Assembly (NCBI GenBank): GCA_947471985.1
Contig: CANIZL010000033.1
Span: 1 to 58,306, forward strand
DNA from: Verrucomicrobiota bacterium
GTDB lineage: Bacteria; Verrucomicrobiota; Verrucomicrobiia; Limisphaerales; UBA9464
Direction: 5' to 3'
Length of the DNA stretch: 58,306 nucleotides
Positions 31,725-41,792 of this stretch are shown one piece after another (within the stretch, counting starts at the first letter, position 1; the number at the start of each line of letters is the position of its first letter). The notes beneath the pieces are model-generated. The model made no database searches and was not told the DNA's origin. It was given only the letters and a program-made list of their open reading frames with translations. The position numbers were made by a program, and so were the translations under genes.

Positions 31725-34700
31725 TCAGACCGCGATGCTCGGGACGGCGCGGGGCGGAGGGACCGCGGGCCCGGCGGGAAGACCTTCCGGGCGGGCGCGG
31801 GTGGGGAAGCCGGCGTAGGTGCGGTTCGGCAGCAGGCGCTCATGCTTCATCACGACGCTGTGCGGTGCGACGCGGGTGTGGGCCCCGATTTCCGCGCCGT
31901 AGAGCAGGATTGCATTCTGGCCCACGGTGGCGCCCCGGTGGATCGTGACCCGGTCGATCTTGAGGACCCGATCCTCAAACGTGTGTGCTTGAAACAGGCA
32001 ATCGACCGTGGCGTCATCCTCGACCGAGAGCATGTCGGGATCGGGAAGATCGTGCGCAAAGCCGCCGCCCAAAACCACGCGTCGACCGATGCGGACGCCG
32101 GTGGTGCGGAGGAGGGCATTGAGCAGGAGGCTGCCTTCCAGCAGGAGAACCAGATCGATGGCGTAGAGACTCCAAGCCAGGCACACGAAATCCCAGCGGC
32201 TGGCCCAACACGACCACAAAGCGTGCACTCCGGGACGCACCCGGCCCAGCAGCGCCCATTTGAGGGCGATCACCATCAAGGCCGATGCCGTGATGATGGA
32301 GAGATGAATCAGCGGTACAGCCAACCACAGCCAGGCCGATCCTGCCAGAGCGCCCTGAGCGAACAGCATCAGGCTGAACCACGCCGACAACAGCGCGGCC
32401 GGCGGCACGGGCAGGGCAAAACGCAACAGCTCCCAGGTGACCCGATTCGCGTAGCGCAGCAAATTAGGCTCGTGCGTGAGGCGACGATCCTCCTCGATGA
32501 TCTGCCGGCGCGGCAGTTCAAACGGCGGATGTCCAAACCAAGCCGAATCGGCGCGAATTTGCGTGGCATCGGCCACCGTGCCCACGCCCAGCAGAATGTC
32601 GTCCGGCAATTCTTGCCCGGCGGCGATAACCACACCGTTGCCGAGAAACGTATTGGTGCCGAGACGCACCGGCGCAACGGTGACCGTGCCACGATGGATC
32701 CGCGGCCCCCCAAGATAAATTCCGTCCGCGCAAAACGTATTCGCCCCGATGCTCACTGTTTCGGGGAGGGTATCGATCAACCCGCTGATTTCGCATCCGG
32801 GGCCAATTTTCATGCCCGCGCAGCGCAACCAGAAGGGCCAAAACAGCGTGCCGTAGAGCCAGCGACCGGCGGAGTCGACGAGTCCGGCTTTCAACCAAAT
32901 CCGCACGTACCCCGGATGCCATCGACGGGTGACTCCGGCCGGAATCCGCCCCATACCCCGGCAGACGAGGGCTTCCATGAGAAGGGTCAAGGGCACCGAA
33001 AAAGCTGCGACGAGAAGGGCGGCGAAAAATACCTGATGATTGGCAGAGGGATGCTGCAACCACGCGATGGCATCGTCGGAGTCGATCTGATGGAGGCGGG
33101 CCAGGCCGAGGGTCAGCAGCTCGGTGGGTAAGGCCAGGATCACGAGGAGCGCGAGACGTGCGGCCACGAGGCAGAGGCCGACCCAGTGCGGCGAAACGGG
33201 GCCGTTGTCGCGGGGCAGGGTGGGCGCGGGTGGGGAGGTTCCGACCGGGCGCGCGGGAATGCCGTCCCAGCGTTCGCCGGCGGGAATCCGGCCACCCCGG
33301 GGCAGCGCGGCGCGGGCGTTCAGAAAGGTGTCCGTTTCCAGGTGCGTGTCGCCGCCGACGCCGGCGTGGGTCTCCAGCGTGCTCCGGGCACCCACAGTCA
33401 CCGGGGAGATAATCAAATGCCGATCCGCCAATTCCGTGAGCTGCAGGCTGGCATCCTGGCCGAGGGTCACGTCATCCCCGATCTCCAACAGGTCCCAGCC
33501 GCCGTGGAAAAGATCCACGCCGCGGTGCAAGTGGACGCGCTGACCGATTCGAGCGCCCAAGGCCCGCAAGGCGGAGTTTTGAAACTCGGTTCCCTCGATG
33601 ACCCACCACGGCACGAATCGGAGGGTCTGCAGCACCATCCAGTGACGGACATAAAACCAACCCCAGACCGGGGCGTGTTGCGGTCGGTACCGGCCGATCA
33701 GGCCCCATTTGACCGCCGCTCCGAGTCCGATCACGAGCGGGGTGAGGGCGGTGATCACCAGTAAGCCCAAGGCCGGTCCCACCAAGGTTAGCGTCACCAA
33801 GCCCATTTTCTCGGCAAGCCAGGGCAGGGCGTGGAACGCGGCCAGGTACGCCAGGCCGGCGCTGACACTGACCGTGACGAGCATCCACGCGGCTTGGATG
33901 AGGGTGGCGAAAATCGGGCGACCGGCGGTGGCGGTCGCGATCTCCCGTGAAGGGGTGGGCATCTCGGTTGGCGGTGCCACTCGTTGCGCCAGCACGCCCG
34001 CCGACCGGCATTCGTACAAATCGCGAACCGTCAGTGTCGCCGTCGCCGGATCCTCGCGCAGTCCGGAGATGGCGATCGCCGCGCTCAGCGAATCGCCGCC
34101 CAGATCATCAAAGAAATCGGCGTGGACCGAAATGTCTCCGTGGCTCGGGAAGACCTGGTGGAACACCGCCACTATGCGGGCTTCGGCACCCTCTTCCGTG
34201 TCTTCGGTCGATCGCGCCGATGGTCGGCTTGTGGCCTCCAGAGCGGGAAGTTGGCGACGATTTATTTTGCCGCCGACCGACTTGGGCAGCTCGGGCAGGC
34301 AACCGAAGCGGGCGGGAATCATGTAGACCGGCAGCAAGGTCTTCAGGGTCCCTTTCAGGGTGTCGAAGCAGGGCGGGGTAGCGGGAGTTGCCGGCACGAT
34401 CCAGGCGACCAGAAACTCCTGGGCGCCCTCACCCTGCACCCGGCAGGCGGCTTCGCGGACACCGTCGCATTCGGCCAACCGCGCCTCGATCGCTTCCAAT
34501 TCCACCCGGTATCCCCGCAGCTTCACCTGCGAATCCATCCGACCAAAATAGAGAAACGTTCCATCCGGGCGCCGGCTGACGAGATCGCCGGTGCGATAAA
34601 TCCGTCCCAGTTGCGGGTGCTGCGGGAATTTTTCCTGGGTGAGTTCGGCTCGATTGCGATAACCCCGGGCCAGACCCGCACCACCGAGGCAGAGTTCGCC

Positions 34701-35801
34701 CCGTTCGCCCAGGGCGACTTCCTGCAGGGACTCGTTGAGCACCCACGCCTGCATGCCGGGGATCGGCCGGCCGATGGAGATTTCCTCGCCCGGTCGGATT
34801 TGCGTGCGCAAGGCGGTGACCGTGCATTCGGTCGGGCCGTAGCCATTTTCCAATCGGCGACCGATCGACCATCGGTCCGCCACATCGCGCGGCAGGGCTT
34901 CGCCACCGACGTAAAGCAGACGCAATCCGGGCAATGCCGCCGCTGGATCCGGACAGCCTGTGGATCGCAGGAGGGTGGGCGGTGGGCATAACACGGAAAT
35001 TCGCTCCCGGGCGAGCCACGGAATCAGATCGGGCCCCAGCCGGGACGCTTCATCGTCCATGACCACCACCGTTGCCCCGGCGGCCAGGCCGAGCCACAGC
35101 TCTTCCACCGATGAGTCATAAGCCGGCGAGGATCCCTGGGCGACGCGATCGCCGGGGGCGAGCCCGAATTCCGCCAGATCCGACGCCACGAGATTGGTGA
35201 TCCCTTGATGCTCGATCATCACCCCTTTCGGGCGACCGGTTGTGCCGGAGGTGTAGATCACGTACGCCAGACTTCGGGGGGACAACCATTCCGGAGACGG
35301 CAGCGGTTCAAATCCGGGGGCCCGGGTATTGGGGTTGATCCGTGCGGTCACTTGGCACACTCGATTCGGTGCCAGGCCGCAGGTTTTTAATCGGACGGAT
35401 CCCGCACGATCCGTAAATACGGCCACGGCTTGGGCGTCGGCGAGAATTTCCCGAATCTGTTCCTCTGGAAATGCGGGATCGATGCAGGTATAGGCGGCGC
35501 CGGAGAGCAAGGCGGCGAGTTGGGCGCTGTAAAGATGTTCCGAATCCTTGGGAAGCAGAATGCCCACCACGCAGTCCGGGGAAACCAGCGGCTGTAGAAA
35601 TTCCGCGAGGAATCGCGCCTGGTGGTGGAGTTCGGCGTAAGTGATCACCCGGCGCTCCGATCGATTCGTTGCCGGAGGGATATCGATCGCGGGATGATCC
35701 GGCCATCGCCGGACGGCAGCGAGGAAGAATTCGTGGAGCGATCCCGGAGCCGCGACGGCGGGAACCGGAGGACCCTGCCCGGATTCGGCCCGACTGCTCA
35801 T
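31725..35801 (-). CDS. Pls-like single-module nonribosomal peptide synthetase
   Basis: A 1358-residue protein. Adenylation domain, about 20-520, with core motifs VIYTSGTTGRPKG (181-193), YDSSVEELW (228-236), NGYGPTE (319-325), YRTGDL and GGKINRR (K512). Carrier domain about 535-605 with phosphopantetheine Ser571 in LGGDSL. Then six predicted membrane helices (about 631-655, 668-697, 873-896, 922-945, 1123-1150, 1158-1183) interleaved with three left-handed beta-helix domains (about 735-850, 990-1090, 1225-1335). No condensation or thioesterase domain is present. This is the layout of epsilon-poly-L-lysine synthetase (Pls, about 1,320 residues). Hand alignment to the phenylalanine-activating A domain gives specificity residues D S E C Y G G V T K; Glu at the third position suits a basic amino acid (inference). 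The ATG overlaps the SET stop by four bases. Confidence 0.88.
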   Translation of the reverse strand: MSSRAESGQGPPVPAVAAPGSLHEFFLAAVRRWPDHPAIDIPPATNRSERRVITYAELHHQARFLAEFLQPLVSPDCVVGILLPKDSEHLYSAQLAALLSGAAYTCIDPAFPEEQIREILADAQAVAVFTDRAGSVRLKTCGLAPNRVCQVTARINPNTRAPGFEPLPSPEWLSPRSLAYVIYTSGTTGRPKGVMIEHQGITNLVASDLAEFGLAPGDRVAQGSSPAYDSSVEELWLGLAAGATVVVMDDEASRLGPDLIPWLARERISVLCPPPTLLRSTGCPDPAAALPGLRLLYVGGEALPRDVADRWSIGRRLENGYGPTECTVTALRTQIRPGEEISIGRPIPGMQAWVLNESLQEVALGERGELCLGGAGLARGYRNRAELTQEKFPQHPQLGRIYRTGDLVSRRPDGTFLYFGRMDSQVKLRGYRVELEAIEARLAECDGVREAACRVQGEGAQEFLVAWIVPATPATPPCFDTLKGTLKTLLPVYMIPARFGCLPELPKSVGGKINRRQLPALEATSRPSARSTEDTEEGAEARIVAVFHQVFPSHGDISVHADFFDDLGGDSLSAAIAISGLREDPATATLTVRDLYECRSAGVLAQRVAPPTEMPTPSREIATATAGRPIFATLIQAAWMLVTVSVSAGLAYLAAFHALPWLAEKMGLVTLTLVGPALGLLVITALTPLVIGLGAAVKWGLIGRYRPQHAPVWGWFYVRHWMVLQTLRFVPWWVIEGTEFQNSALRALGARIGQRVHLHRGVDLFHGGWDLLEIGDDVTLGQDASLQLTELADRHLIISPVTVGARSTLETHAGVGGDTHLETDTFLNARAALPRGGRIPAGERWDGIPARPVGTSPPAPTLPRDNGPVSPHWVGLCLVAARLALLVILALPTELLTLGLARLHQIDSDDAIAWLQHPSANHQVFFAALLVAAFSVPLTLLMEALVCRGMGRIPAGVTRRWHPGYVRIWLKAGLVDSAGRWLYGTLFWPFWLRCAGMKIGPGCEISGLIDTLPETVSIGANTFCADGIYLGGPRIHRGTVTVAPVRLGTNTFLGNGVVIAAGQELPDDILLGVGTVADATQIRADSAWFGHPPFELPRRQIIEEDRRLTHEPNLLRYANRVTWELLRFALPVPPAALLSAWFSLMLFAQGALAGSAWLWLAVPLIHLSIITASALMVIALKWALLGRVRPGVHALWSCWASRWDFVCLAWSLYAIDLVLLLEGSLLLNALLRTTGVRIGRRVVLGGGFAHDLPDPDMLSVEDDATVDCLFQAHTFEDRVLKIDRVTIHRGATVGQNAILLYGAEIGAHTRVAPHSVVMKHERLLPNRTYAGFPTRARPEGLPAGPAVPPPRAVPSIAV

Positions 35802-36367
35802 GCGGGCACCAGCGACGGCAGCGGAACCGTCGCGGACTCCAGGTGCCGCTGCAGATGGGTGGAGAGATGGGGCCGAAGGCGATGACGTTGCTCGTGCGTC
35901 AGGTGTTTGAAGCCCCGGATCTCACCCAGGCAAACTGCGCTGCCGCACCGACACGCGAACGGGTCGGCCATGTCGTACTCGGTGGCGTTGTAATCAAAGG
36001 TGACATCCTCCCAAGGAGCGATCGTGCGAACGGCGACGACTTCCCGTCCGCGAATGACTGTGTTCGGCTCACAATGATGGTTCATGAACCGCCAGAAATA
36101 GCGGTCGAGGATTTCCTCGGCGGAATGTCCCGGGTTGAGATCGACGTGCTGGGTTTCGCTGACCTGCACGGAATACCGCGAGGGACGCAGGGAGAGTTCG
36201 CCTTCGATGCGAAACATGCGCTCGCCGGACACGATCTGGCGGAGGGCAATGAGCCGGTATTCCCGCGCGGCGCGGACGACACCAACCAGGTTCTCTGGAC
36301 ATTCGTGAACCGGTAAAACCACGCCCGGGCTGATTTCAGTGGGCGCAAATACGCTGCCATTTTTCAT
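35798..36367 (-). CDS. SET-domain protein methyltransferase
   Basis: A 189-residue protein. The SET core is clear: RFMNHHCEPNT (93-103, equivalent to the NHSCxPN cofactor/substrate motif), EVVAVRTIAPWEDVTFDYN (109-127, ending in the FDYN element with the conserved Tyr126), and a cysteine-rich post-SET-like tail (C139, C141, C146) that could bind zinc. SET enzymes transfer methyl groups from S-adenosylmethionine to lysine side chains. The stop overlaps the start of the Pls-like synthetase in an ATGA junction, implying coupled translation and a shared task. Possible targets are the amine of the synthetase product, the synthetase itself or an unrelated protein. The N-terminal 60 residues are not recognised. 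A candidate promoter lies just upstream. Confidence 0.85.
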   Translation of the reverse strand: MKNGSVFAPTEISPGVVLPVHECPENLVGVVRAAREYRLIALRQIVSGERMFRIEGELSLRPSRYSVQVSETQHVDLNPGHSAEEILDRYFWRFMNHHCEPNTVIRGREVVAVRTIAPWEDVTFDYNATEYDMADPFACRCGSAVCLGEIRGFKHLTHEQRHRLRPHLSTHLQRHLESATVPLPSLVPA

Positions 36368-36483: not shown

Positions 36484-37629
36484 TCAATCCAGAGTCTGAC
36501 GATACCGTTTGGCGCCCACAGCGAGGACGAGCACGGTGAAAACAGCGATGGGCCACGCGTGAGGAAACGCTTCATGAACAGTATTCCCCTTGAGCATGAT
36601 GCCGCGAACGATGCGGAGAAAATGGGTCAACGGGAACACTTCGCCCAGCACCTGGGCCCACGGCGGCATGCCGCGGAAGGGAAACATGAATCCGGAAAGC
36701 AGCAGCGATGGCAGAAAGAAGAAGAAGGACATCTGCACCGCCTGCAGTTGATTGGCGGCGATGGTGGAAAAGGTGATGCCGACGGACAGATTCGCGGCAA
36801 TGAAGATGCTCGTCAGGGCGAACAGGAGGAAAATGTTACCGACGATCGGCACGTGAAACACCAGGCGGGCCGCCAGGAGAATCAGGGTCACCTGCACGTA
36901 CCCCACCAGAATGTACGGCACGATCTTGCCCAGCATCACTTCGATCGGTCGCGTGGGCATCGAAAGCAGATTCTCCATGGTGCCTCGTTCCCGTTCGCGG
37001 GTGATGGCCAGCGAGGTGATCATCACCATCGTCATGGTGAGCACCACTCCCATGAGGCCCGGGACGATGTTGTACTGGGTCACGGCTTCCGGATTGAAAG
37101 CCGGATGCACGCGCAGATCGATCACTGGAGCCGCGGGCGCCAGGCCGGCCAGCGGACCGCGCGCGTCAGCGCCCAGAGCGGTGACCATCAAGGTACGCAG
37201 GGCTCCAAGCGCATTGCCGGTCGCCGCAGGGTCGGTGGCATCCGCTTCCAACAACACGGACGGAGATTCGCCGCGTTGCAGGCGCCGGGAGAAATCCTCG
37301 GGAATGTGCAGCACAAATTGGGCGCCTCCACGATTGAGCAAATCGGTGGCTTCACGCCCGTCGCGGACTTCGCCGACGAAGGTGAAGTAACCGCTATTTT
37401 CAATGGCCTTCAGCAGGGTCCGCACCTGGGGGCCGTGATCGGCCAAGACCACCGCCGTGGGCAGGTGTTTGGGGTCCGAATTGATTGCGAATCCAAACAA
37501 CATCAGCTGCATCAACGGCACGCCGATCATCATCGCGAACGTGAGCCGATCCCGCCGCATCTGGGTGAACTCCTTCACCACCAAGGCCCAGAAGCGCTGG
37601 AGGGACTGGCTGAAGCGGGGCGTGCTCAC
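36484..37629 (-). CDS. ABC-2 type export permease, YbhS/YbhR-like
   Basis: A 381-residue membrane protein. One helix near the N-terminus (FAMMIGVPLMQLMLFGFAI, about 31-49) is followed by a large extracytoplasmic domain (about 50-180; FVLHIPEDFSRRLQRGE) and five C-terminal helices, with the cytoplasmic coupling segment AITRERERGTMENLLSMPTRPIEVMLGKI between the first two. This is the ABC2_membrane_3 pattern of YbhS/YbhR/YhhJ exporters. Its start overlaps the ATPase stop by four bases, and the adaptor gene is next in line, so the three form a tripartite-type efflux system. The SET-synthetase pair lies 116 bases downstream on the same strand. Confidence 0.9.
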   Translation of the reverse strand: MSTPRFSQSLQRFWALVVKEFTQMRRDRLTFAMMIGVPLMQLMLFGFAINSDPKHLPTAVVLADHGPQVRTLLKAIENSGYFTFVGEVRDGREATDLLNRGGAQFVLHIPEDFSRRLQRGESPSVLLEADATDPAATGNALGALRTLMVTALGADARGPLAGLAPAAPVIDLRVHPAFNPEAVTQYNIVPGLMGVVLTMTMVMITSLAITRERERGTMENLLSMPTRPIEVMLGKIVPYILVGYVQVTLILLAARLVFHVPIVGNIFLLFALTSIFIAANLSVGITFSTIAANQLQAVQMSFFFFLPSLLLSGFMFPFRGMPPWAQVLGEVFPLTHFLRIVRGIMLKGNTVHEAFPHAWPIAVFTVLVLAVGAKRYRQTLD

Positions 37630-38555
37630 GGGGTGGCGAAATTATCCGGAGCCCGGCTCATGAGGTGAATGAACACATCCTCCAGGCTGGTCTTCACCTC
37701 GCTCCATTGATACTCCGGTGTTCGCCACGGTTGGATGGCCGCCGCAAGCGCCGGAGCGTCGTCGCTGCTCACGTGCAGGGTATTGCCGAACGCCACCGCA
37801 TGTTGCACTCCGGGTGTGACGCGCAATTGAACCGCCAGCGCTGGCAACCGGGGGCCTGCCACCGACCAAGTGGTGAGACCGGCGCTCGCGATGACTTCCG
37901 TCACCGTTCCGCGCGCCAGCAGCCGGCCGTAGGCAATGTAGCCCAGCCGATGGCAGCGCTCCGCTTCGTCCATGTAGTGCGTGGTGATCAGCACCGTGAG
38001 TCCGTCCGCCGCCAGTTGATGGATCTGTTCCCAGAAATCCCGCCGGGCCTGGGGATCCACCCCGGCGGTGGGTTCATCGAGCAGGAGCAGTCGGGGGCGA
38101 TGGATCAGGCAGGCGGCGAGGGCGAGGCGCTGCTTCCAACCGCCGGACAACTGCCCGGCAAGTTGGCGGGAACGTTGAGTGAGCCCGAGGCGTTCGAGAC
38201 TTTGGTCGACCGCGTGGCGTCGATCCAGCACGCCGTAGATGCGCGCAACAAAATCCAGGTTCTCCCGGATGCTGAGGTCTTCGTAAAAACTAAAACGCTG
38301 GGTCATGTACCCGGCCTGACGTTTGATCTCCTCGCTCGCCGTGATGACATCAAAGCCCAGGCAGGTGCCGCTGCCCGCATCCGCCCGCAGCAAGCCGCAG
38401 AGCATGCGAATGAAGGTCGTCTTGCCGCTGCCGTTCGGACCGAGAAATCCATAGATCTCGCCGGTGCGAACCTGCAGGGAGATGTCGTTCACCACGGTGC
38501 GGTCGCCGAAACGCTTCGTCAGTCCCTGCACATCGATGGCGAGTGGCGATTCCAT
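37626..38555 (-). CDS. ABC transporter ATP-binding protein
   Basis: A 309-residue ATPase subunit with Walker A GPNGSGKT (39-46), Q-loop YMTQRFSFYEDL, signature LSGGWKQRLALA, Walker B LLLLDEPTAGVD and the switch His in TTHYMDEAERC. The C-terminal 80 residues are the extension typical of ABC-2 exporters of the YbhF/drug-resistance class. It energises export through the overlapping permease gene (ATGA-type four-base overlap). The upstream adaptor gene ends five bases before its start, so the three genes are clearly one operon. Confidence 0.95.
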   Translation of the reverse strand: MESPLAIDVQGLTKRFGDRTVVNDISLQVRTGEIYGFLGPNGSGKTTFIRMLCGLLRADAGSGTCLGFDVITASEEIKRQAGYMTQRFSFYEDLSIRENLDFVARIYGVLDRRHAVDQSLERLGLTQRSRQLAGQLSGGWKQRLALAACLIHRPRLLLLDEPTAGVDPQARRDFWEQIHQLAADGLTVLITTHYMDEAERCHRLGYIAYGRLLARGTVTEVIASAGLTTWSVAGPRLPALAVQLRVTPGVQHAVAFGNTLHVSSDDAPALAAAIQPWRTPEYQWSEVKTSLEDVFIHLMSRAPDNFATP

Positions 38556-38560
38556 GGCGG

Positions 38561-39544
38561 TCAGCGTGGCCGGAAGGTCACGTCCACCGGCTGTCCCGGA
38601 TGAAACCGCGGCGCTTCCTCCGGCCGAAGGGCCAGTTCAATGAGGTACACCAGTTGGCTGCGATTATCGCGGGAGTACAGCATGGGCGGGGTGTATTCCG
38701 CGTGGTTGGCAATGAAGGCGACCGTGGCGTTGGCCAGGTTGGTGGTGCCGTCCACCTGGACGATGGCGGGGTCGCCGAGGTGCAGCGTTCCCAGGCGGGT
38801 TTCGGGGACGAAGACCCGCACCTTGATTTGCGCGGGCGGTAGGAGGACGACCACCGGGCGACCGGCCGGCACCCATTCGCCCACGCGGAAAAGTGTGTCA
38901 TGCACCTGGGCGGCCTGAAGAGCGCGGGGTTGCTTTTGCTCCAGCTCCCAGCGGGCCCGGGTCACGGCGGCTTCCAGCGTCGTTACTTCGGCTTCCGCGG
39001 CGGCGATTTGGTCGGGGCGCGCACCCAGTTCGGCCGTGGCCAGATCGGCCCGGATGCGGGTCAATCGTTCCGTCGCCTGCTGCGCGGAGGCCTCCGCTCG
39101 ATCCCGTTCCTGGGGGGAGGCCACGTGCGTGTCGCTCAGGCGCACCAGTCGTTGCCGTTCGGCGGTGGCCAGCACGAGCGCGGCTTCGGCTTCCCCCAGT
39201 TGCGCGCGCAGGGAGCTCATTTCCGAAGGTCGGTGGCCTTTGCGCCGATCCGCCAGAGTGGCCCGCGCGCCTTGAACTTTGCCTTGGGCTTCCGCGAGGC
39301 GGGTGCTTTCAGGTTCGGGTTCCAATTCGAAAAGTGGCTGACCCGCTTCCACCGTCTGGCCGCGCTGCACGTGCAGGTGGACGAGACGTCCCGCCTGGGG
39401 TGCGGCGGCGTACACATACTCTCCCTCGACATAGCCCGACACGGTACTGCGAGGCGTCGGCCGGCAGCCAACGCCCCAGCCAGCGAGCGCGGCGAAGGCC
39501 AGGTACGGCACAACTGAGCGAAGCCAGTGGGGGGCAGCTTTCAT
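38561..39544 (-). CDS. HlyD/YbhG-type periplasmic adaptor subunit
   Basis: I choose the ATG at 39544 (327 residues, MKAAPHWLRSVVPYL...), because the upstream 48 in-frame residues have no signal character. The N-terminus is a membrane anchor or signal peptide. Then come a lipoyl-like half (GYVEGEYVYAAAPQAGRLVHLHVQRGQTVEAGQPLFELE), a long alpha-hairpin (about 75-210), and the returning lipoyl and beta-barrel parts (FRVGEWVPAGRPVVVLLPPAQIKVRVFVPE). Adaptors of this kind join an inner-membrane ABC exporter to an outer-membrane channel; no TolC-like gene is in the window. It is the first gene of the operon and is divergent from the CotH gene across about 140 bases that should hold both promoters. 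Confidence 0.9.
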   Translation of the reverse strand: MKAAPHWLRSVVPYLAFAALAGWGVGCRPTPRSTVSGYVEGEYVYAAAPQAGRLVHLHVQRGQTVEAGQPLFELEPEPESTRLAEAQGKVQGARATLADRRKGHRPSEMSSLRAQLGEAEAALVLATAERQRLVRLSDTHVASPQERDRAEASAQQATERLTRIRADLATAELGARPDQIAAAEAEVTTLEAAVTRARWELEQKQPRALQAAQVHDTLFRVGEWVPAGRPVVVLLPPAQIKVRVFVPETRLGTLHLGDPAIVQVDGTTNLANATVAFIANHAEYTPPMLYSRDNRSQLVYLIELALRPEEAPRFHPGQPVDVTFRPR

Positions 39545-39686
39545 GTTTTCGCGAAAGAGGATTAGTCCCTGATCGGTGCGATAGCACGGACGAAGCTGGC
39601 TGGCACTTCCCCTGTCCCCGAGGGTGGGTTTGGGTTTGGTTGAACCGAATTCAGCGTTGCCCGGTCTCACCCTTTCAATACACGCC

Positions 39687-41792
39687 ATGAAGTTTTCCGA
39701 GCACGGACTCCGATCGGTCAGTCAATCCACTACGTTCCGGGATGGGAATCGCGGAGCGAACTGGTTCTGGGTGATGGCCTGGATGATGTGGGTCACGGCT
39801 GTTCCCGGAATGTGGGCCGCGGGTCCGGCGTTGGCGCACCATGAACCCGCTCAACCAAAATCCGGCCAGCCCGTTCGGATTATTGTTGATCGGAGTGTCG
39901 AGGGGCAATCGGGTGATCTGGTGGTGGAATATCAGAGCGTGGCTCCCGGCCAGTATGTGGCGAAGGCGAATCCGCAGTATTTGAAAGGTTGGACGGCGAT
40001 CGCTTTGAGCGCGGGTCCGGGGGGTGAGTGGACGGCGGAGATTCCCGCCCGGGTGCAGCAGCACCGGCAGCTGATCCGCTACCGGGTACGGTCCGCGAAG
40101 TCCAAGGCGGTGGTGGTCCCGCCCCGCGAAGATGCCCAGGGGAATTTGGCGTACTTCGTGTATGACGGCGTGCCGGCCTGGCGTGGGGCGGTGAATCCGC
40201 GGGGTGATGCCGCGGCGCGGGATGTAAAAACGTTTCGATCGGAAGTCCTGACGCGGGTGCCGGTGTACCAATGGATTGCGGCCAAGGACGACGTGGAGAA
40301 GGTCCTGTGGCGGGAACCGAACAACTTCAACGGCGACGAGGCGCGGCACGCGTATAAGTACACCGGCACGCTGGTCTGCGATGGGGTGGTCTATGATCAT
40401 GTTCGCTTCCGCGCCCGGGGTGGCGGTTGGCGGCACGCCATGGGGAAGAATATGTGGAAATTCAATTTCAACCCCGGGCACCGGCTTGAAGCCGCGGATG
40501 ACTACGGTCGGCCCTATGCCGCCAAATGGGACAAGCTCAATCTCGGCGCCTGCATCCAGCAGGGCGACTACGGCATGCGGGGCGAGCAGGGGATGTTTGA
40601 ATCGCTGAGCTTCCGACTCTTCAATCTCGCCGGCGCCGAGGCGCCGCACACGCATTGGATTCACCTGCGGGTCGTGACCGAGACCGAGGAATCCCCGGCG
40701 GATCAGTATCGCGGCGATTTTTGGGGGCTGTATCTGGCGACGGAGGAGATCGATGGGGCCTTTCTCAAGGAGCACGCTCTGCCCGAGGGGAATGTCTACA
40801 AGATCGATGGATTCGCGCCCCACGTCGAACACGTGGCCGATCCCACCCATGCGGATGGCGCGGATGCGCAAGCATTTCTCGCGCAGTTGATGCAGGGTGG
40901 CGCCGGCGAAAAATGGTGGCGGGCCAATGTCGATCTGCCGCGGTATTATGCCTATCGCGCGGTTCTGGAGGCCGTTCACCACTACGACGTCGATTCGGGA
41001 AAGAATTATTTCTTCTACCACAATCTGACGGCCCGTCGTTGGCAGGTGATTCCGTGGGATGTGGATCTTACCTGGGGAGAACGGATGTACGGCGGCGGTC
41101 AGGAACCCTTTGTCGACGCCGTTCTGCGCCGGTCGCCGGCCCTGCGGGCTGAGTACCAGGAACGGCTCGCGGAACTGATGGATCTTTTGCTGAACCCCGA
41201 AGCCCTCGGACGGCTTATCGATGAGCAGGCTGCCTGGATCTGGGATGCATCCGGTGGACTTTCCCTCGCCGATGCGGATCGGGCCAAATGGGATTATCAC
41301 CCGATCATGTCCTCGCCGCTTTCCATTCGGGGAAAATCGGACCCGGGTCTATTTTATCGACGGAATCCCGCGAATCGCTTCGATGTCATGATCGCGGGGA
41401 TGAAGAAATTCGCCGCGGGCCGGCAAGCGCATTTGGCCCGGCTGCTGACCGGCTATCAGCCGCCCGTGGCACCGCAGTTGACGGGGCCGAAAACGGTGCG
41501 CCCGATCGACGGTCCCCTGCGCTTGACGGCGACGGGGGAACCGGTGGCCGCGCACTATCGGTGGCGGTTGGCGGAGGTTTCCCGATCGAGCGGTGAGGCG
41601 ACCCTACCCGCCACGCCGTGGCATCATGAAATCCTGCCGTTATGGGAATCCGCCGCGACGGACGGTGCCGGGATGGAGGTGCCTACGACCCGCATGGAAC
41701 GGGGGCATACTTACCGGATTCGAGTGAAGGGCCAATCCCCTGATGGTCGCTGGAGTCGTTGGTCGGCCCCGCTGGAATTGGTCGCGGAATGA
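39687..41792 (+). CDS. Secreted CotH kinase-family protein
   Basis: From the ATG at 39687 the protein has 701 residues with a signal peptide (WVMAWMMWVTAVPGMWAAGPALA). After a beta-rich N-terminal part comes the CotH domain, about 200-560: ARGGGWRHAMGKNMWKFNF, GLYLATEEIDGAFLKEH, RYYAYRAVLEAVHHYDVDSGKNYFFY and the hallmark VIPWDVDLTWG. CotH of Bacillus phosphorylates spore-coat proteins on serine; PVC homologues are secreted and uncharacterised. The C-terminal about 120 residues look like an Ig/fibronectin-like domain (YRWRLAEVSRS ... YRIRVKGQSPDGRWSRWSAPLELV). An in-frame TTG at 39624 would lie outside the signal peptide and is less likely. Confidence 0.87.
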   Translation: MKFSEHGLRSVSQSTTFRDGNRGANWFWVMAWMMWVTAVPGMWAAGPALAHHEPAQPKSGQPVRIIVDRSVEGQSGDLVVEYQSVAPGQYVAKANPQYLKGWTAIALSAGPGGEWTAEIPARVQQHRQLIRYRVRSAKSKAVVVPPREDAQGNLAYFVYDGVPAWRGAVNPRGDAAARDVKTFRSEVLTRVPVYQWIAAKDDVEKVLWREPNNFNGDEARHAYKYTGTLVCDGVVYDHVRFRARGGGWRHAMGKNMWKFNFNPGHRLEAADDYGRPYAAKWDKLNLGACIQQGDYGMRGEQGMFESLSFRLFNLAGAEAPHTHWIHLRVVTETEESPADQYRGDFWGLYLATEEIDGAFLKEHALPEGNVYKIDGFAPHVEHVADPTHADGADAQAFLAQLMQGGAGEKWWRANVDLPRYYAYRAVLEAVHHYDVDSGKNYFFYHNLTARRWQVIPWDVDLTWGERMYGGGQEPFVDAVLRRSPALRAEYQERLAELMDLLLNPEALGRLIDEQAAWIWDASGGLSLADADRAKWDYHPIMSSPLSIRGKSDPGLFYRRNPANRFDVMIAGMKKFAAGRQAHLARLLTGYQPPVAPQLTGPKTVRPIDGPLRLTATGEPVAAHYRWRLAEVSRSSGEATLPATPWHHEILPLWESAATDGAGMEVPTTRMERGHTYRIRVKGQSPDGRWSRWSAPLELVAE

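Follow-up and report, generated by a model that had tools for sequence, protein, structure and literature searches.

The window analyzed here is a stretch of 58,306 nucleotides from a Verrucomicrobiota bacterium (contig CANIZL010000033.1 of assembly GCA_947471985.1). In it, a SET-domain methyltransferase gene stands directly upstream of a gene for a Pls/PosA-like synthetase. Both genes lie on the minus strand and share four bases, ATGA, in which the stop codon of the first (TGA) and the start codon of the second (ATG) are interlocked. Comparison across several phyla identifies this pairing as a conserved two-gene unit tied to one synthetase clade only, and not as a product of chance. An earlier sequence-only reading of this DNA had reported the overlap and had described the core motifs NHHCEPN and FDYN and a CxC...C tail as intact. 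Both observations were borne out, with all motifs present and their key residues invariant in 14 homologues.

Architecture of the two-gene unit

The upstream frame is a coding gene, as indicated by close homologues (E < 1e-39) in 8 of 58 related genomes, its own included. The Pfam SET model matches the 189-residue product with 32.5 bits (E 1.3e-7; gathering score 22.4). The core that is invariant in the 14 homologues comprises R64, S66, Q68, H74, D76, the run W92-R-F-M-N-H, C99, T123, F124, Y126, T129, E130, C139, C141, and C146. By sequence, the presence of NHxCxPN, a tyrosine at the catalytic position, and the post-SET cysteines places the protein in the SET superfamily, and methyl transfer dependent on S-adenosylmethionine (SAM) is predicted. 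SET proteins had been called uncommon in bacteria. Such rarity is not seen among these 58 genomes, 28 of which hold some SET match at E ≤ 0.001.

The synthetase shares with Pls and PosA an adenylation domain, a carrier domain, six hydrophobic regions (membrane segments by hydropathy only), and a hexapeptide-type terminal region. Its conserved pocket Asp and Glu and terminal HxFED residues are further likenesses. It differs from them in its pocket code, in belonging to a clade often paired with SET, and in scoring 362.2 bits against NCBIfam TIGR02353, under the curated cut-off of 423.1. It is thus not filed as a member of that family, although it may work like one. The terminal region is approximately 26-35% identical to that of the synthetases found with other pockets. 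Residues shared by every synthetase compared, with at most one exception, are retained in it, for example, H1273, E1276, and D1277, and conventional amide formation is therefore likely. A cationic homopolymer is a candidate product.

The adenylation pocket departs from the known pattern. The ten specificity positions were read through alignment to the window synthetase and give DSECYGGVTK, which is none of the known codes for diamino acid substrates. As a check on these positions, the same alignment returns DMEHNGTVSK for many other synthetases, the code published for PosA (PMC10522769). According to that study, Asp217 and Glu221 of PosA are both essential. Their equivalents here are Asp229 and Glu233, and this agrees with the earlier suggestion of a synthetase for a basic amino acid, for which acidic pocket residues are expected. 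The same study reports that PosA Thr304 contacts the side-chain amine, and that a small residue at the second pocket position goes with longer side chains. In the window synthetase, the second position is a small Ser, and the Thr304 equivalent is Gly320; this position is Gly in 17 of 17 clade members compared, and at least 29 of the 30 other synthetases have Thr there.

An adenylation domain with the identical ten-residue code, Bdello_A from Bdellovibrionales, is named in PMC10522769 as uncharacterized. In that paper, the domain preferred none of the four known diamino acids and gave modest activation of L-arginine. No product is known for it, and the authors propose a larger analogue as its substrate.

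Table 1. Features of the two-gene unit and of its upstream neighbors (window coordinates).
Feature	Position	Strand	Remarks
SET-domain methyltransferase gene	35798..36367	-	189 aa, ATG start, upstream (first) gene of the pair
NHHCEPN motif, SET residues 96-102	36062..36082	-	N96, H97, C99 invariant in 14/14 aligned homologues
FDYN motif, SET residues 124-127	35987..35998	-	F124, Y126 (catalytic-position Tyr) invariant in 14/14
CRCGSAVC post-SET cysteines, SET residues 139-146	35930..35953	-	C139, C141, C146 invariant in 14/14
ATGA, four bases shared by the SET stop codon and the synthetase start codon	35798..35801	-	
Pls/PosA-like synthetase	31725..35801	-	1358 aa, pocket code DSECYGGVTK
Adenylation domain, synthetase residues 28-518	34248..35720	-	
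Carrier (PP-binding) domain with LGGDSL, synthetase residues 542-608	33978..34178	-	
TIGR02353-like membrane terminal region, six hydrophobic regions	31803..33896	-	362-365 bits, below the 423.1-bit cut-off
ABC-2 permease, upstream neighbor	36484..37629	-	
ABC ATPase, upstream neighbor	37626..38555	-	
HlyD-type membrane-fusion protein, upstream neighbor	38561..39688	-	

Distribution and ancestry of the pairing

Within the 58-genome sample, all seven close SET homologues in other genomes (E < 1e-39) adjoin a synthetase gene on the same strand, and none of the 13 weaker SET loci inspected there has a synthetase. A search of genome contigs returned seven SET loci. Six of these carry the pair, including two contigs already found; the seventh (L055) has no synthetase on the SET contig, but one lies on another contig of the same genome. 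DSECYGGVTK is the code of each of the first 12 SET-linked synthetases.

Wider sampling started from the synthetase. A 293-genome order sample (own genome included) holds 41 genomes with a synthetase of the wider family (E ≤ 1e-30), and 38 synthetase loci were taken from it together with a 387-genome phylum sample. The special pocket was read in 32 genomes or plasmids, as DSECYGGVTK in 31 and as DSESYGGVTK in one (L112). A SET gene is adjacent in 20 of these, on the same plasmid in one, elsewhere in the genome in six, and not found in five. The 20 adjacent cases divide into 12 from the window's phylum (L054 by title), seven from the phylum sample of a Chthonomonas-titled genome, and one metagenome-assembled genome titled Gammaproteobacteria. 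The taxon label of the last is doubtful, given that a sample of 321 genomes around it in its class returned only that record itself. Ten of the 20 linked loci allow a four-base overlap of the two genes.

At loci with other pockets (ornithine-like, lysine-like, and other), a profile built from 13 SETs detected no SET gene in any of 37 at E ≤ 0.001. These are the fully readable loci, among them L092 with only approximately 120 bases upstream. SET genes recur beside homologous synthetases with the special pocket but were absent from these 37 loci, and on this count pairing as a general Pls/PosA trait was rejected.

Several loci stand outside both counts. The pocket is cut by a contig end in L064 (which belongs to G448, counted through L109), L065, L074, L076, L088, L104, L157, and L158. 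L165 (split gene, odd code), G1080, and one Sphingomonas and three Azospirillum plasmid synthetases whose code was not read were likewise left out; no SET was found on the latter four plasmids. L051, L052, and L053 are the same contigs as L032, L033, and L062 and were counted once. Four similar Streptomyces plasmid records carry both genes, and one of them supplied the pocket reading; one plasmid copy of the SET gene is from Streptomyces sp. NBC_00060. In the record used for the pocket (L145:13032-31213; NZ_CP108254.1 88031-106212), SET and synthetase lie approximately 13.6 kb apart, and a SulP anion transporter gene adjoins SET. A scan of IMG/VR with the SET profile gave seven distant SETs and no synthetase at those loci. 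As a separate observation, a further pocket, DGESLGTVGK, occurs in three G684-phylum genomes at loci lacking a SET neighbor (L105:5975-10045, L163:4141-8172, and L164:3-4010); two of these genomes, G684 and G816, also have the SET-linked synthetase type.

A quick-search tree of 47 full-length synthetases gathers the 17 special-code members in a single clade with a Shimodaira-Hasegawa-like approximate likelihood ratio of 100. L061, a SET-less locus, falls inside this clade, so its SET gene was probably lost or moved. The SET tree joins all 20 linked SETs and three unlinked SETs into a 23-member group (support 96/81). The unlinked members are L116 and L117, whose synthetase is elsewhere in the genome, and L136, whose long branch makes its placement unsure. 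Nine of the 13 weaker SETs entered this tree and cluster apart from that group, on a long branch.

Both genes also tend to occur in the same genomes. SET was counted by profile (E ≤ 1e-20) in two phylum samples, with Fisher tests uncorrected for descent. Among 249 genomes of the G682 phylum (record titled Gemmatimonadetes), 23 have SET, seven have a close-type synthetase, and six have both; SET is thus present in 6/7 synthetase genomes versus 17/242 others (p 2e-6). Twenty loci of these 23 SET genomes were fetched and one more is L055, while G1021 and G1104 are known by genome search only. In the G684 phylum (record titled Chthonomonas; 201 genomes), SET occurs in nine genomes, a close-type synthetase in 11, and both in eight, that is, SET in 8/11 synthetase genomes versus 1/190 others (p 2.6e-11).

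The SET enzyme also occurs independently of the synthetase. Of 24 genomes with SET but no adjoining synthetase, seven carry one elsewhere, and 17 gave no synthetase match at E ≤ 1e-10. In 15 of these 17 the SETs were compared for signature residues, which are shared in 12, whereas three hold distant SETs that lack them. All twelve keep W92, H97, C99, F124, Y126, T129, and E130, while position 96 is Asn in nine and Asp in three. For G958 and G1014, both among the twelve, the gene lies on contigs longer than 3 Mb. No gene recurs as a same-strand partner of the unlinked SETs at more than a few loci.

Apart from shadow frames within the pair, no third gene is shared by more than four of the 20 linked loci. 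Upstream of SET in the window, tandem HlyD, ATPase, and permease genes (36484-39688, same strand) could form a product exporter there only; as a conserved third partner, this ABC/HlyD exporter is ruled out, as its genes do not recur beside other pairs. Elsewhere, in one sampled genome of the Gemmatimonadetes-titled phylum, adjoining genes (L137:6665-10597) encode an ATP-grasp ligase, a 477-aa fusion of ATP-grasp and SET, part of an ABC transporter, and a small SET protein, another case of an amide-forming enzyme coupled to a distant SET. A gene for a DUF418/HGSNAT-type membrane protein follows the synthetase at two loci where SET is unlinked (L150:9334-10503 and L156:6164-7168). Near two further clade synthetases lie TauE-like (by eye) and rhodanese/beta-lactamase-fold genes (L146:6276-7019 and L155:4329-6607), a setting in which a link to sulfur is conceivable.

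Kinship of the SET enzyme with BurB

Among solved structures, the best match of the window SET is BurB, the methionine S-methyltransferase of Burkholderia thailandensis, by phmmer, profile, Foldseek, and VIA alike. The profile search of the PDB gave E 7.7e-14 for BurB versus 3.4e-11 for the next entry. VIA returned a Z of 11.7 at 3.9 Å over 130 aligned residues with 25% identity, and the next other entry reached 9.9. The protein lysine methyltransferases MLL, SETD2, and ASH1L share the fold and the core motifs but score below BurB.

BurB and the window SET are both small, stand-alone bacterial SET proteins, and BurB serves a pathway of the nonribosomal peptide synthetase type. They have in common a Thr-Glu pair (TE) after the catalytic-position Tyr and a CxCGxxxC tail. 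They diverge in partner, which is a Pls-like synthetase here and not BurA, and in overall sequence (approximately 25% identity). The pocket differs as well. By sequence alignment, with the register set by eye, Trp92 corresponds to BurB Ser88, and Phe124, two residues before the Tyr, corresponds to the Met of the BurB motif TMDY. The pocket residues of BurB are accordingly not shared by the window SET family, which has Trp92 and TF[DN]Y. Every one of the 20 linked SETs keeps Trp92 and the TE pair, as do the 12 same-signature SETs from genomes without a synthetase. These residues distinguish the family from the ordinary SETs of related genomes, which have Ala or Pro at position 92 and no TE. Phe124 stands at what we take to be the Phe/Tyr-switch position of lysine SET enzymes, where Phe favors di- or trimethylation.

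Precedents for SET enzymes acting on small molecules exist. Published text on BurB describes methylation of free methionine (PMC12542666; PMC7496086), with Ser88 placed between product and SAM (PMC12542666). For Rubisco LSMT, methylation of free lysine is cited as a side reaction (PMC8085414).

Possible roles of the pair

Beside the computed pairing, clade-specific pocket, BurB kinship, and conserved terminal-domain residues, we set a function inferred for the pair from its sequences. The explanation we tentatively favor, at a little under an even chance, is a two-gene cassette in which SET methylates a free cationic amino acid, probably at N-epsilon of lysine, and the synthetase then loads it. 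The substrate of SET would be a free, small, cationic amino acid, with lysine the most likely candidate. The adenylation domain, with its pocket remodeled where relatives grip the side-chain amine, would then place the methylated residue onto the carrier. The membrane terminal region would join or transfer it, as in polylysine and polyornithine synthetases. An N-epsilon-methylated lysine would resemble arginine in length and charge. The free substrate, its identity as lysine, and the order of the steps are our inference, with methylation before loading favored over that of a tethered residue or product.

Several findings weigh against this cassette model. The main evidence against tight coupling comes from the five special-pocket genomes in which a SET of this type was not found (G325, G764, G720, G785, and G916); G325 has only an ordinary SET, and the assemblies of all five are in many contigs. 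In addition, the single origin of the synthetase clade means that the association reflects a few evolutionary events and not 20 independent ones. The pocket differs from that of BurB, which itself acts on methionine and not on lysine. The di- or trimethylation expected from a Phe switch fits an isopeptide polymer poorly. A di- or trimethylated side-chain nitrogen cannot be joined, and the linkage would then run through the alpha-amine. SETs of synthetase-free genomes may have a different substrate there. Asp replaces Asn96 in six unlinked SETs (L120, L121, L122, L125, L127, and L129), three of them from synthetase-containing genomes. Finally, the structural model of the window SET has a mean pLDDT (predicted local distance difference test) of 76, and the other four models reach 52-69.

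Methylation could instead follow loading, with SET acting on the carrier-bound residue or on the finished oligomer or polymer. The frequent gene overlap fits enzymes that work together, and so does the scarcity of any widely shared third gene. However, 12 of the 24 examined genomes hold a same-signature SET although no synthetase was found in them, and no such product is expected there; the unusual pocket also fits an unusual free substrate. This order of events is rather unlikely. Closer to BurB, its nearest solved relative, SET might methylate methionine and the synthetase load the sulfonium amino acid, S-methylmethionine; the SulP transporter beside SET on the Streptomyces plasmid would suit this. 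Yet this family has Trp92 where BurB has Ser88, and the Phe in its TF[DN]Y takes the place of the Met in TMDY. The sulfonium would also sit nearer the alpha carbon than the charge of arginine, which the same pocket activated according to PMC10522769. A BurB-like reaction is accordingly improbable.

The modest activation of L-arginine by an identical pocket, reported in the same paper, could also mean that the synthetase loads plain arginine while SET serves a separate step or protein, the neighborhood being inherited and not one pathway. The missing SET in 5 of 32 special-pocket cases points the same way. Against it, SET and synthetase co-occur even when unlinked, and the Streptomyces plasmid holds both genes some distance apart; we regard this account as quite improbable.

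SET enzymes usually methylate protein lysines, and this habit, together with the gene overlap, suits a target lysine in the synthetase or carrier, methylated for regulation or self-protection. The sequence-only reading had raised such roles, and the comparison speaks against them. In 21 SET-partnered synthetases (17 linked or on one plasmid, four with SET elsewhere), seven lysines are conserved, and all seven are also conserved in 30 others (one of them in 29 of 30). No lysine in this comparison is thus specific to the partnered synthetases, and a synthetase-specific methylation site was rejected on that ground. The same-signature SETs in genomes where the synthetase was not found argue in the same direction, leaving protein methylation as the least likely alternative.

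Among the best literature matches listed, seen as titles and abstract openings and with few subscription journals covered, no description of a SET/synthetase pair was found. The pairing bears on a published question, namely, the true substrate of the orphan DSECYGGVTK adenylation domain. Extended beyond the window, the cassette model would give several phyla a two-gene pathway to oligomers or conjugates of N-epsilon-methylated lysine, a possible but more doubtful proposition. In it, a SET enzyme diverted from protein targets would provide the free building block, and a dedicated branch of polylysine-type synthetases, of which one orphan adenylation domain is already known, would consume it. 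If true, this would bring a new cationic class of natural product and, beside BurB, another SET enzyme of a small-molecule pathway. It would also represent a methylated branch of the cationic homopolymer family, possibly with antimicrobial or cell-penetrating properties.

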